From Candidatus Uhrbacteria bacterium (GTDB lineage Bacteria; Patescibacteriota; Patescibacteriia; 2-12-FULL-60-25): a stretch of DNA of 64,000 bases. Made by a program: the position numbers and the translations under genes. Shown piece by piece: positions 39,463 through 44,907 of this stretch. The stretch lies in the NCBI GenBank assembly GCA_003576745.1, contig QEVR01000002.1, forward strand, positions 299,884 through 363,883, in the 5' to 3' direction. Position 1 is the stretch's first letter. Every line of letters begins with the position of its first letter. The notes under the pieces are model-generated. The model saw only the letters and a program-made list of their open reading frames with translations. It had not been told where the DNA came from and made no database searches.

Positions 39463-40656
39463 TTACTTGATGATCTTCGTGACAACCCCTGCGCCCACCG
39501 TCTTTCCGCCTTCGCGGATGGCGAAACGCATTTTATCTTCCATAGCAACCGGGGTAATAAGTTTTACGGAAATCTGCGCGGTGTCGCCGGGCATAACCAT
39601 TTCCGTCCCTTCTGCGAGCTTCACTTCGCCCGTGACGTCCGTCGTTCGGATGTAGAACTGCGGCTTATAGCCCGTAAAGAACGGCTTATGGCGTCCGCCT
39701 TCTTCCTTTTTGAGTGCATACACTTCCGCTTCAAATTCGGTATGCGGAGTAATAGATCCAGGCTTTGCCAAGACCATTCCGCGCTCTACCTCTTCCTTTT
39801 TGATGCCGCGGAGAAGAATTCCCGCATTGTCGCCGGCAAGACCTTCATCGAGCTGCTTATTGAACATTTCGATGCCGGTAACAATCGTCTTCATGGGCTC
39901 TTCGCGGAGACCAACGATCGAAACTTCATCGTTCAAATGGATCTTGCCCCGTTCAATGCGTCCGGTTACTACGGTTCCCCTGCCTTCGATCGAGAACACG
40001 TCTTCGATTGGCATGAGAAGGTCCTTATCCACTTCGCGAACGGGTTCCGGGATTTTTTCATCGAGCGCCTTTACGAGATCGAGAACCGGCTTGGAAGCAG
40101 CTTCGTCGCTTGGATTCTGCAGAGCCTTCAAAGCGGATCCGCGGATAATCACAGCAGCGTCGCCGTCGAATTTATATTGCTTCAGAAGGTCTCGGACTTC
40201 CTGTTCAACAAGATCCACGAGTTCCGGATCATCAACCATGTCGACTTTGTTCAGAAAAACGACGATTTCCGGTACGCCGACCTGACGAGCCAACAGTATG
40301 TGCTCGCGGGTTTGCGGCATCGGACCGTCTGTGGCCGAAACGACGAGGATTGCGCCATCCATTTGGGCGGCGCCCGTAATCATGTTTTTGATGTAGTCCG
40401 CGTGCCCCGGGCAGTCCACGTGCGCATAGTGGCGCGCATCAGACTCATATTCGCAGTGAGCTGTCGCGATGGTGATACCCCGAGATCGGGATTCCGGCGC
40501 TTTATCAAGATCTTCCACCCCTTTGGTCTGGGCGGTTTTTCCATGCGCATTCAAGACGGCAAGGATGGCAGCCGTGAGCGTCGTCTTTCCATGGTCTACG
40601 TGACCGATGGTGCCGACATTTACGTGCGGCTTTTTTCGTTCAAACTTTTCTGCCAT
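39463..40656 (-). CDS. tuf: Elongation factor Tu
   Basis: Delivers aminoacyl-tRNA to the ribosome. The 397-residue product has the P-loop GHVDHGKTT, the switch [10 protein letters not shown] with catalytic His, NKVDMVDD, and the domain 2/3 signatures [12 protein letters not shown] and the C-terminal [15 protein letters not shown]. The Met chosen ([19 protein letters not shown]) fits the family; 13 additional upstream codons are not conserved. It has its own promoter and probably leads the S10 operon transcript. Confidence 0.97.
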
Positions 40657-40774: not shown

Positions 40775-40803
40775 AGTATAGCACCACCCTGTTTTGGATG
40801 CAA
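40775..40803 (-). promoter_or_regulatory. Promoter of tuf and the S10 operon
   Basis: TTGCAT, 17-bp spacer, TATACT, giving a leader of about 110 nt before tuf. Confidence 0.75.
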
Positions 40804-40885: not shown

Positions 40886-41239
40886 CTATGATTTTTCATC
40901 TTCCAGAGGCTCCAGATAAAAATTCTCTTCCAGAAATGAGGCGTCCGTCGCTTCCACGCGCTTCTTCGTAGCAGAGGATGAGCCGTCCGTCGGATCCTGC
41001 ATATGTTCCTGCATCCGCTCGAGGGTAAGGTCGGCGAGCGCGCGGGCGACTTCATCTTCCGTTTCCGTCCCACCGTTTTGATGAACATGGGGCTTGGACG
41101 CGGTTGTCCCCGGGATGCCGACCATGGCCGCAAAGTCTTCAAACGGCATAACGACCTGAGGAGACTCCCCCCGGTCATTGGTGATAACGACGGGAATGCC
41201 GAGACGACCCGCCGTTTCGAGAATTTTATTGATGCTCAT
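40886..41239 (-). CDS. Small protein with Phd-like N-terminus, unrecognised
   Basis: The 117-residue product starts SINKILETAGRLGIPVVITN. The strand pattern IPVVITNDRGESPQVVMPFED loosely resembles the N-terminus of prevent-host-death (Phd/YefM) antitoxins, but no toxin gene adjoins and the rest is an acidic, Glu/Asp/Ser-rich, probably disordered tail ending in LEPLEDEKS. No clear Shine-Dalgarno is seen. A poor promoter (TTGTCA, 17 bp, TGACAT) would start transcription about 6 bases before the ATG. It lies between the small-gene array and the tuf promoter. Confidence 0.65.
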   Translation of the reverse strand: MSINKILETAGRLGIPVVITNDRGESPQVVMPFEDFAAMVGIPGTTASKPHVHQNGGTETEDEVARALADLTLERMQEHMQDPTDGSSSATKKRVEATDASFLEENFYLEPLEDEKS

Positions 41240-41330
41240 AACAGTACCGCTATGTCATCACGGTACACCCGACCTGACAAGATGCAAATCACCGAGTCAT
41301 ATGTTTGCCGTAGGTAGATATTTTTCGGAA

Positions 41331-41358
41331 AAGCAAAGAGCCTGCATGAACAGGCTCT
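41331..41358 (-). terminator. Terminator after the 90-residue gene
   Basis: AGAGCCTG/CAGGCTCT stem with a 6-base loop, followed by a T-rich stretch on the minus strand. Confidence 0.65.
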
Positions 41359-41456
41359 CGACGAGATTGAACGGCTTCCGACTTTTCGACCGGAAAAGGC
41401 GAAAAAACAAGGATCCATGGCGGCGGGCATCCGCCTGACCCATGTAGCGGTGGGAG

Positions 41457-41729
41457 CTATTCGTGACCCGTTCCGTCTTCCGAACCCGGGAAAGCCGCGC
41501 GGGAGGATCTTTGCGCGCGAACGGACTGAAGTCGACGCTCCACCTGTCTCCGCATGTGTTCAGAGAGCTCAAAAAGGAGTGACTCGTCTTCGGCGAGACT
41601 TATGAAAATTTCCGCGTTTCCTTCATCCGTTTCTCCATGTTCGGGAATGACGGCGAGGAGCTCCAGAAGCTTGATTCTTCGCAGGTTCACCCGCATTTTC
41701 CCCGTGGTATTTCTTGAGGATTTCGTCAT
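41457..41729 (-). CDS. Small protein related to its neighbour, 90 residues, unrecognised
   Basis: Starts at ATG (MTKSSRNTTGKMRVNLRRI) with AGGAAGG 8 bases upstream and a consensus promoter behind it. Residues 20-55 (LLELLAVIPEHG then FISLAEDESLLFEL) align with the second half of the 134-residue protein at 41852 (LAQLLALIPDDG, FLRLADDADLIRRL), so the two share a module. The start region is basic and the tail ends with Arg/Ser-rich sequence. It has no membrane helix and no known family. Confidence 0.7.
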   Translation of the reverse strand: MTKSSRNTTGKMRVNLRRIKLLELLAVIPEHGETDEGNAEIFISLAEDESLLFELSEHMRRQVERRLQSVRAQRSSRAAFPGSEDGTGHE

Positions 41730-41761
41730 CCGTGCTGCCTTCCTGACCAATGTGCCAGCCG

Positions 41762-41790
41762 AATCTAACGGGCAGAAATATTCCTGTCAA
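41762..41790 (-). promoter_or_regulatory. Promoter of the 90-residue gene
   Basis: TTGACA, 17-bp spacer, TAGATT. Confidence 0.75.
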
Positions 41791-41793
41791 CGA

Positions 41794-41829
41794 TAAAAAA
41801 GAGCCCGTCTCCTCTTGCGAGACGGGCTC
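41794..41829 (-). terminator. Terminator after the 134-residue gene
   Basis: An 11-bp perfect stem GAGCCCGTCTC/GAGACGGGCTC followed by TTTTTT, immediately upstream of the next promoter. Confidence 0.9.
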
Positions 41830-41851
41830 GGCCAGGCGCAGACGCATGGCC

Positions 41852-42256
41852 CTAGTACAGGATGACGTGCTTTCGGACGGTTTCCGCTTTCTTTCGGACA
41901 GCCGCGAACTCCTCGTGAGGAAGGCGCCGAATGAGATCGGCGTCGTCCGCCAGACGGAGAAACTCCGCTCCGTCATCGACGTCATCGACATTTCCGTCAT
42001 CGGGAATCAGCGCCAGAAGCTGCGCGAGCTTTTCGCCGCGCTGGAGGATTGCCTCTGCCGCTCGCGTGGCGTCCGAAACCACATCGAGGGTCTGCCGGTC
42101 GAGTCCGACCAGATTTCTTGCATCGCCCGCCAGGGCGATGTACTCCGCAATGACGTCCATCGAGACAGGAGTCTTTTGACGGAGGAGGCTCAAGATGCTA
42201 ATCAGCCTTTCCTGATCCGTATCACACGCCGTGGTTGCAGAAATGGTTGCTGACAT
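41852..42256 (-). CDS. Small acidic helical protein, 134 residues, unrecognised
   Basis: Excellent Shine-Dalgarno (AAGGAG, 5 bases before the ATG), own promoter and terminator. The product appears all-helical: an N-terminal Ser/Thr stretch, a first helical part (ERLISILSLLRQKTPVSM) and a second with LALIPDDGNVDDVDDGAEFL that is paralogous to the 90-residue protein downstream. Net acidic. No catalytic motif or membrane segment. Confidence 0.75.
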   Translation of the reverse strand: MSATISATTACDTDQERLISILSLLRQKTPVSMDVIAEYIALAGDARNLVGLDRQTLDVVSDATRAAEAILQRGEKLAQLLALIPDDGNVDDVDDGAEFLRLADDADLIRRLPHEEFAAVRKKAETVRKHVILY

Positions 42257-42288
42257 CCGATCTCCTTTTGAAGGTGAGGAACGACGGG

Positions 42289-42317
42289 AAGATACATCGT
42301 GTTTTCAATCATGTCAA
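42289..42317 (-). promoter_or_regulatory. Promoter of the 134-residue gene
   Basis: TTGACA, 17-bp spacer, TATCTT, about 25 nt before the Shine-Dalgarno. Confidence 0.8.
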
Positions 42318-42331
42318 GCGGTATGGACAAG

Positions 42332-42359
42332 CGAAAGCCCGCGGACGAAGCGCGGGCTT
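42332..42359 (-). terminator. Terminator after the 81-residue gene
   Basis: AAGCCCGCG / CGCGGGCTT stem, then TTCGCTTG on the minus strand. Confidence 0.7.
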
Positions 42360-42405
42360 GGAGATTGGTGAGATGAGCTCGAAGTGGTTTGTGAGCATCG
42401 GCGCG

Positions 42406-42651
42406 TTACGCGCTAATGGCAACGGCGAATGAACCGAGGATTTCAACGGCGCGGCTGCTCGCCTTCGTGAGGCGTATCTTTTCCGCTGATGAAAGCCCGT
42501 CGATGCGCTCGAGATGCTTCATGGCGCTGTAGAACGGGATGGCGGTTTCGTAGCCGGGGTTGGCTTTGAACGCGTCGAAGAGACGGAATATGTCGTCCTT
42601 GCTCGGAATTCGAAGGTTCGTTGCTGATTTTTCTTTTTGATGCACGGTCAT
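42406..42651 (-). CDS. Small helical protein, 81 residues, unrecognised
   Basis: The ATG is preceded by AAGGAGAGG, which fixes the start; the longer frame upstream lacks such a site. Sequence features: IPSKDDIFRLFDAFKANPGY, then FYSAMKHLERIDGLSSAEK and a hydrophobic tail SRAVEILGSFAVAISA. It is probably a small helical bundle. First member of the array between fusA and tuf. A -35-like TTGACG lies upstream, but the -10 is poor. Confidence 0.7.
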   Translation of the reverse strand: MTVHQKEKSATNLRIPSKDDIFRLFDAFKANPGYETAIPFYSAMKHLERIDGLSSAEKIRLTKASSRAVEILGSFAVAISA

Positions 42652-42778
42652 CCTCTCCTTCCTTTTCCATCGGCGCTCACGAATTGCGGCGCACTTGTGT
42701 TCACTTTCACCGTAGTACAGAGCGGGTCTGGCGTCAATATCTGTCGGCGTCTTTTGATACCCCCAAGCGGACGGACGC

Positions 42779-42804
42779 AAAAAGACCCGGGAGCGGGTCT
42801 TTTT
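42779..42804 (-). terminator. Terminator after fusA
   Basis: AAAAAGACCCG/CGGGTCTTTTT stem with loop GGAG, 18 bases past the fusA stop. It separates the str genes from the small-gene array. Confidence 0.9.
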
Positions 42805-42822
42805 GTTCGTTTCCTTCTCTAC

Positions 42823-44907
42823 CTACGACTTCTTTCCCTTGCCCGCAACGATTTCTTCCTCAACGGCCTTTGGCACCGGAGCATAATGATCGAATTCCAT
42901 GGTGGATGTCGCGCGGCCCTGCGACATGGAACGCAGCGTCGTAACATAGCCAAACATCTCCGAGAGAGGAACGACGGCATCGATCACTTTCATGTCGCCG
43001 CGATCCGTCATTTCATTCACCTGTCCGCGCCTTGAGTTCAAATCGCCGATGACATCTCCCATGAATTCCTCCGGCGTTACAACCTCGAGCTTCATAAGCG
43101 GCTCCAGCAGCACGAGACCCGCCTTTCTTGCCGCGTCCTGGAATCCCATGGATCCCGCGATTTTAAACGCGGCCTCGGACGAGTCAACTTCGTGATACGA
43201 GCCGTCGAAGAGCGTTACCGATACGTCCTGCAAGGGGTAGCCGGCAAGAACGCCGCGCGAAAGCGCTTCCTGAATGCCTTTGTTCACGGCAGGGATGTAT
43301 TCTCTCGGAATGACGCCGCCCTTAATTTCGTCGTGGAATTCATAGCCCTTGCCGCGTTCAAGCGGTTTGACGCGCACATACACGTGCCCGTACTGGCCGC
43401 GACCCCCTGTTTGGCGGATGTATTTCGCTTCCGCTTCCGCCTCGCCTTTGATGGTTTCGCGATACGCGACCTGTGGCTTGCCGACATTCGCTTCAACCTG
43501 AAATTCGCGTTTCATGCGGTCCACGATAATGTCGAGATGCAATTCCCCCATACCGCTGATAATGGTCTGGAGCGTTTCTTCATCCGTCCGTACGCGGAAC
43601 GACGGGTCTTCTTCCGCAAGTTTTTGCAACGCGATACCCATTTTGTCCTGGTCGGCCTTTGTTTTGGGTTCGATGGCGATGGAGATAACTGGCTCCGGTG
43701 CCTGAATAGTTTCGAGGACGACCGGAGAATTTTCATCGCAGAGCGTGTGTCCTGTGAATGTCCCCTTCAGTCCTACGGCAGCGGCGATTTCGCCTGCGAA
43801 CACCTCCTGCACTTCCTCACGAGAATTCGAATGCATGCGCACAATCCGGCTGATGCGCTCTTTTTCGCCCGTCGTCGTGTTGAGCACATACGATCCCGCC
43901 TTCAGCATGCCGGAATAGACCCGGAAGAAAATCAGCTTTCCGACATACGGATCCGTCATGACTTTGAATGCGAGCGCGGCAAAGGGTTCGCTGTCCGAGG
44001 CTTTCAGTTCGACGATCTCCTCTTCATTGTCCACTGCATGGCCTTTAACCGGAGGGACATCAACCGGCGATGGAAGATACTCCACAATTGCGTCGAGCAG
44101 GAACTGGACCCCCTTATTTTTCAACGCAGATCCGCAAAGAATCGGCACGAGCCTGCTCTCAATAACGGCTTTCCGAAGCGCTTTCTTGATTTCATCGACC
44201 GACAAAGTCTCTCCCCCGAGATAGCGGTCCATGAGCGCTTCATCCGTTTCCGCAAGCGCTTCCAAAAAGCGTGCGCGATACGCCTCCGCTTTTTCTTTAT
44301 ATTCGTCGGGGACGGCTGTTTCCTCGATTTCCTTGCCGAGTTCGTCTTTGTAAATGCGAGCGTTCATTTCAATGAGATCGATGATGCCTACGAAATTTGA
44401 CTCTTCCCCAATGGGAATCTGGATCGGATGCGCATCTTTCGTGAGACGCTTATTAATCGATTCCACATCCTTGTAAAAATCCGCCCCCGTGCGGTCGAGC
44501 TTATTCACGAAACACATGCGCGGAACCTTATATTTGTCTGCCTGGCGCCACACGGTTTCAGACTGCGGTTCTACGCCCGCAACACCGTCGAATACCGTGA
44601 CCGCGCCGTCGAGCACGCGGAGGGAACGTTCCACTTCGATGGTGAAGTCCACGTGCCCCGGCGTGTCGATGAGGTTCATGCGATGACCCTTCCAAAAACA
44701 CGTAGTGGCCGCCGAAGTGATGGTAATACCGCGCTCCTGTTCCTGCTCCATCCAGTCCATAGTCGCCTCGCCTTCGTGCACTTCGCCGATTTTGTGCTTG
44801 CGGCCGGTATAGAACAACACGCGCTCGGAGACAGTAGTCTTGCCGGCGTCAATGTGGGCGATGATCCCGAAATTCCGGGTAAGTTCCAGGGAATATTCTC
44901 GTGGCAT
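42823..44907 (-). CDS. fusA: Elongation factor G
   Basis: Drives ribosomal translocation with GTP. The 694-residue product has AHIDAGKTT (P-loop), the switch [20 protein letters not shown] and [10 protein letters not shown], and the domain IV region ([16 protein letters not shown], then [14 protein letters not shown]) with the family end [13 protein letters not shown]-like (here [17 protein letters not shown]). It follows rpsG by 108 nt. It is followed by a terminator, so tuf is a separate transcript. Confidence 0.97.

Follow-up and report, generated by a model that had tools for sequence, protein, structure and literature searches.

An insertion hotspot filled with orphan genes and a Phd/YefM-like gene kept beside tuf between fusA and tuf of a Candidatus Uhrbacteria genome

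The window (i.e., the whole stretch of 64,000 nucleotides analysed here) comes from contig 3 of a 1.06 Mb, 97% complete genome of Candidatus Uhrbacteria, ultra-small bacteria which have been placed in class ABY1 of the Patescibacteria (PMC12641178). Its minus strand carries the gene order rpsL, rpsG, fusA, ORF1, ORF2, ORF3, ORF4, tuf, rpsJ (Table 1). An earlier note on this DNA had reported four ORFs between fusA and tuf, and the ORF list confirms their number, lengths, and positions. The interval contains two unrelated things, a hotspot filled with orphan genes (ORF1–ORF3) and a small gene fixed beside tuf (ORF4, designated X hereafter); we are highly confident of the anatomy and distribution described below.

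Table 1. Genes, protein parts, and candidate control signals of the fusA–tuf interval (positions in the window)
Feature	Position	Strand	Remarks
fusA (EF-G)	42823..44907	-	ORF list; other border of hotspot
Terminator-like hairpin after fusA, T-tailed on both strands	42777..42806	-	z -2.8
ORF1, 81 aa, orphan	42406..42651	-	Weak partial matches to longer proteins only
Hairpin with weak T tail after ORF1	42335..42359	-	z -3.0; missed by consensus scan
Promoter-like site before ORF2, TTGACA-17-TATCTT	42289..42317	-	Just past ORF1 hairpin
ORF2, 134 aa, orphan, paralogue of ORF3	41852..42256	-	No convincing homologue
Terminator hairpin with full T6 tail after ORF2	41801..41829	-	z -3.9
Promoter-like site before ORF3, TTGACA-17-TAGATT	41762..41790	-	Just past ORF2 hairpin
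ORF3, 90 aa, orphan, paralogue of the C-terminal half of ORF2	41457..41729	-	Z 10.9 against ORF2
Terminator-like hairpin with moderate T tail after ORF3	41336..41359	-	z -4.5
ORF4 (X), 117 aa: Phd/YefM-like core, acidic linker, C-terminal FYLEP motif	40886..41239	-	
N-terminal core of X, residues 1-46: helix, beta hairpin, helix	41102..41239	-	AF2 model, pLDDT about 90
C-terminal motif of X, EENFYLEPL, residues 104-112	40904..40930	-	
Conserved tuf promoter, TTGCAT-17-TATACT	40775..40803	-	X–tuf spacer, 118 nt before tuf start
tuf (EF-Tu), gene directly downstream of X	39463..40656	-	ORF list; same in relatives

Hairpin strength was expressed as a folding z-score relative to shuffled sequences; for each of the four hairpins, no shuffle or almost none folded as well. 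Terminators had been proposed after each of ORF1, ORF2, and ORF3; hairpins are indeed present after all three, but only that of ORF2 has a full T tail, the tails after ORF3 and ORF1 being moderate and weak, respectively. The proposal that two consensus promoters lie directly past the preceding terminator agrees with the TTGACA-17 sites found before ORF2 and ORF3, both of which are located at the identical spacing of 32 nt from the next ATG. Putative promoters and terminators belonging to ORF2 and ORF3 themselves are supported by these signals. The single Rfam match in the interval scored far below the gathering score, and a known RNA element was rejected.

No convincing relative of ORF1, ORF2, or ORF3 turned up in the family (Candidatus Uhrbacteria of class ABY1), of which 40 other genomes were searched, and none of ORF2 among 381 genomes of the class; ORF3 was searched in the family genomes and by profiles only. 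A phage or plasmid origin was also considered and rejected: ORF1 and ORF2 had no match in phages, ORF2 had none in IMG/VR, and tuf was the sole match when the whole interval was compared with plasmids by blastn. Profiles of defence systems gave no match. Because the GC content of ORF1–ORF3 is that of their neighbours and no relative was found in phages, plasmids, or IMG/VR within these searches, a foreign origin is unsupported. The codon usage of these three genes is similar to that of neighbouring genes, and the gene frame ranks top of six for each ORF; since wrong-frame ORFs can reach similar scores, the protein-coding nature of ORF1–ORF3 is supported rather than proven. ORF2 and ORF3 align over about 57 aa with about 33% identity (0 of 1000 shuffles scored as high), so the paralogy proposed previously stands, and the aligned stretch is longer than the ~35 residues then given.

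The content of the fusA–X space changes in almost every relative, even inside a genus. By names read from the sequence, it may be a pair of pilin-like genes, ABC transporters, a peroxiredoxin, a methyltransferase, or a reverse-transcriptase-like ORF, and in some relatives the space is empty. The fusA–tuf gap, for which the earlier note had proposed an insertion into a conserved neighbourhood, is an insertion hotspot throughout the family. As in known variable hotspots between conserved genes, the content differs from relative to relative; unlike those, this hotspot sits inside the usually compact fusA–tuf string, and a small gene of fixed position forms its border towards tuf. In this hotspot, ORF2 and ORF3 share an origin by duplication, each with its own promoter-like and terminator-like signals, and ORF1–ORF3 are most likely independent lineage-specific accessory genes that are tolerated there. 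The reverse-transcriptase-like ORF was read from the sequence between fusA and X in genome G024 (L081, 6074–7075). Genes of the VirB2/TrbC-like pilin type, also read from the sequence, are located just upstream of X in L051, L052, L057, L059, L061, L067, and L079; these are common to members of Uhrbacteria genus g14, unlike the variable fusA–X content elsewhere.

X presented a very different distribution. A profile search detected it in 271 of 381 class genomes (226 in an earlier profile round) and in 240 of the 319 that are near-complete, and a single-sequence search found it in 38 of 96 relatives; the genome scan used a genus-level alignment of X. The tuf locus was read in 14 class genomes that gave no profile match, and four of them (G044, G056, G057, and G065) have a divergent ORF resembling X ahead of tuf, which makes 271 a lower bound. 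In the remaining profile-negative loci, tuf comes immediately after fusA or after some other gene, or else a contig end truncates the region upstream; some class members lack X, which is therefore not essential everywhere. Outside class ABY1, a divergent X precedes tuf in some genomes and tuf directly follows fusA in many others. X-like proteins of other Patescibacteria classes (L256, L240, and L239) end in EEIPF, NDIPF, or DDLPL rather than in FYxEP, ends that resemble the tip of single-stranded-DNA-binding protein.

In every one of the 96 class loci examined, X is the gene immediately before tuf; these comprise 76 loci representing about 30 families and 20 more that were picked solely from the hit list. 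The gap between X and tuf measures 65–341 nt in the 76 loci, with one exception of 581 nt, and 67–428 nt in the further 20; a gap of more than 500 nt separates fusA from X in 38 of 60 loci, as compared to 1 of 76 for X and tuf. ORF4 of the window, which ends in FLEENFYLEPLEDEKS 229 nt before tuf, combines the core domain, the C-terminal [FY][FY]xE-P pattern, and the place directly before tuf, the features that define the as yet unnamed, class-wide tuf-linked X family. Genome G332 has two copies of X on separate contigs (L282 and L283), each followed by a tuf gene; either the genome has two tuf loci or the assembly combines two strains. Distances between X proteins follow those between EF-Tu proteins (Mantel r 0.42; 0 of 999 permutations), and dN/dS was 0.09 for one pair of X genes and 0.12 for another, dS being close to saturation; X is vertically inherited and under purifying selection. 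X has probably long belonged to the machinery of the cell, as opposed to having been inserted recently. A literature search found no account of such a tuf-linked protein.

These distributions also bear on the view of the earlier note that all four genes form one acquired, functional cassette acting on translation factors. Adjacency and similar control signals speak for such a cassette, but X occurs class-wide without ORF1–ORF3, no relative carries those three alongside X, and neither ORF1 nor ORF4 has significant similarity to the other three ORFs. When the array was sought in relatives, X recurred before tuf and homologues of ORF1–ORF3 were not found. With three orphans on one side and, on the other, an old, vertically inherited gene fixed before tuf across most of the class, a single acquired array was rejected, and the functional cassette acting on translation factors is highly improbable. 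Of the four genes, X alone offers indirect evidence of an action on translation factors.

Nearly all Uhrbacteria X–tuf spacers contain a promoter of the form TTGC(G/A)N-17-TATAxT, with a TTGC-type −35, a 17-nt spacing, and a TATA-type −10, suggesting that tuf is probably transcribed from its own start. X and tuf thus need not be co-transcribed, and a shared promoter alone cannot explain their linkage. A terminator was found in the X–tuf spacer in 7 of 76 loci, as compared to about one expected; read-through from X to tuf in most loci is possible, though unproven. A TG often immediately precedes the −10 of the Uhrbacteria tuf promoter (X–tuf spacers of L045–L081), and this promoter could serve as a promoter model for the lineage. 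In L104, L107, L111, L138, L139, L105, and L116, a TTGACx-16/17-TAAnAT sequence ends only 9–10 nt upstream of the X start codon, a layout suggestive of leaderless transcripts of X in several families.

The earlier description of all four proteins as having no known family fits ORF1–ORF3, at least among the 40 family genomes, and not X, for which matches to PF02604 (Phd/YefM) were obtained, mostly below threshold. In profile searches, this family matched 35 of 37 homologues (best E 6.9e-6) and 30 of 33 homologues, again mostly sub-threshold, with a best E of 1.1e-7; the window X scored 14.2 bits relative to a gathering score of 29.8 bits, and the homologue scores displayed are also below this cut-off. 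The NCBIfam model phd_fam weakly matched 9 of 37 members. In the alignment of X, the N-terminal 45 residues are conserved, the linker that follows varies greatly in length, and the C-terminal motif comes last. In a structural comparison of the AF2 model of the window X, ranks 1–14 were all Phd/YefM antitoxins (Z 2.9–4.2 over 38–47 residues), and the core aligned to nearly all of the top chains from their residue 10/11 on. A second AF2 model, of an X from another family, matched M. tuberculosis RelJ/YefM and P1 Phd from residue 8–10, with a match that takes in the following helix. Structural Z ranged only from 2.4 to 4.2 over both models, low as expected for a domain of ~45 residues; the linker and tail were poorly modelled.

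The helix-hairpin-helix core of X appears to be shared, by mostly sub-threshold profile matches and by structural matches of low Z, with Phd/YefM type II antitoxins (P1 Phd and the YefM proteins of E. coli and M. tuberculosis), as is a disordered C-terminal part past the core, and an antitoxin ancestry of the core is likely. Unlike these antitoxins, X has no adjacent toxin, has a conserved FYxEP tail, is fixed beside tuf, is inherited vertically, and lacks the DNA-contacting N-terminal strand: alignments begin at PF02604 position 11–13 and at residue 8–11 of Phd/YefM chains, the equivalent of Phd residues 1–10 is largely or wholly missing, and an in-frame stop is found about five codons upstream of the ATG of the window X. 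Of 76 X proteins, 71 carry the pattern [FY][FY]x[ED][PSEK] close to their C-terminus, as compared to 2 of 680 control ORFs, and X ends right after this motif in many families. The possibility that FYLEP is a tag shared by many proteins was rejected; the genome has a single match to the strict pattern, located in ORF4.

We propose that the ancestor of X was a type II antitoxin that either lost its toxin or never had one linked to it. The small, presumably dimeric core would present a disordered tail that docks onto a partner in the manner of an antitoxin, and this partner would now be a conserved housekeeping protein and no longer a toxin. Given the constant place of X beside tuf, EF-Tu or the elongating ribosome is its most plausible partner; the role of X would be to stabilise, regulate, or guard EF-Tu, the leading candidate as judged from linkage alone. 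As a whole, this reading of X as an antitoxin-derived scaffold whose C-terminus docks onto a conserved partner, most plausibly EF-Tu, is our best explanation, although we hold it tentatively and at somewhat less than even probability; that the partner lies in translation is about as probable. The fullest form of the proposal is rather doubtful, i.e., that X is an antitoxin turned permanent EF-Tu partner in most of ABY1 (divergent in some other Patescibacteria), a lineage-specific factor of translation elongation that docks by a conserved C-terminal peptide and whose shortness, divergence, and sub-threshold profile scores have caused it to be overlooked. Gene-order inertia or a cis-regulatory need could also hold X in place.

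X may instead be a working solitary antitoxin, whose tail neutralises a toxin encoded elsewhere in the genome or delivered by bacteria nearby. Like the Doc kinase, such a toxin might attack EF-Tu. A Phd/YefM-like core with a C-terminal docking layout would suit such a role, and Doc, the partner of Phd, phosphorylates EF-Tu and thereby inactivates it (PMC13034048). X resembles the Phd-Doc module in being Phd-like with a possible connection to EF-Tu. However, unlike in that module, no Doc/Fic gene is found between fusA and tuf, nor any toxin gene beside X, in the 20 of 60 loci where X is the only gene between the two (and thus has no linked toxin), and X adjoins the gene of the target and not that of a toxin. 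Its fixed position, vertical inheritance, and purifying selection are atypical of mobile toxin-antitoxin pairs, and its tail motif is not known to resemble the Doc-binding tail of Phd, which also counts against a solitary antitoxin; we consider this explanation unlikely.

Phd/YefM antitoxins are DNA-binding autorepressors, and the kinship of X with them, together with its constant place just upstream of the conserved tuf promoter and the occurrence of insertions upstream of X and essentially never between X and tuf, is consistent with X being a transcription regulator of that promoter. Against this explanation, which we consider quite improbable, stand the loss of the segment that contacts DNA and the acidity of the protein as a whole (10 K+R relative to 22 D+E): in E. 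faecalis Phd, Lys8 and Arg10, with Asn14, are needed for DNA binding (PMC13034048), and X begins at the equivalent of Phd residue 10/11, so that the segment with Lys8 and Arg10 is largely or wholly absent. A further explanation, also improbable in our judgment, is that X has no special tie to EF-Tu, functions elsewhere, and stays in the conserved rpsL-rpsG-fusA-tuf string by inertia of gene order. Ribosomal gene strings are generally conserved, and the separate promoters of tuf and X would fit such inertia; the asymmetry of insertions, which are common between fusA and X and essentially absent between X and tuf even though either spacer can be about 100 nt, weakens it, as does the finding of X away from tuf in none of 96 loci.

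Genomes of ~1 Mb have shed most dispensable genes, and most ABY1 genomes retain X directly before the EF-Tu gene despite their small size. If X binds EF-Tu, as the docking-scaffold reading proposes, it would represent a new factor of the elongation cycle confined to Patescibacteria, as well as an antitoxin that has been exapted into the core machinery; weak antitoxin annotations in Patescibacteria may hide housekeeping proteins.
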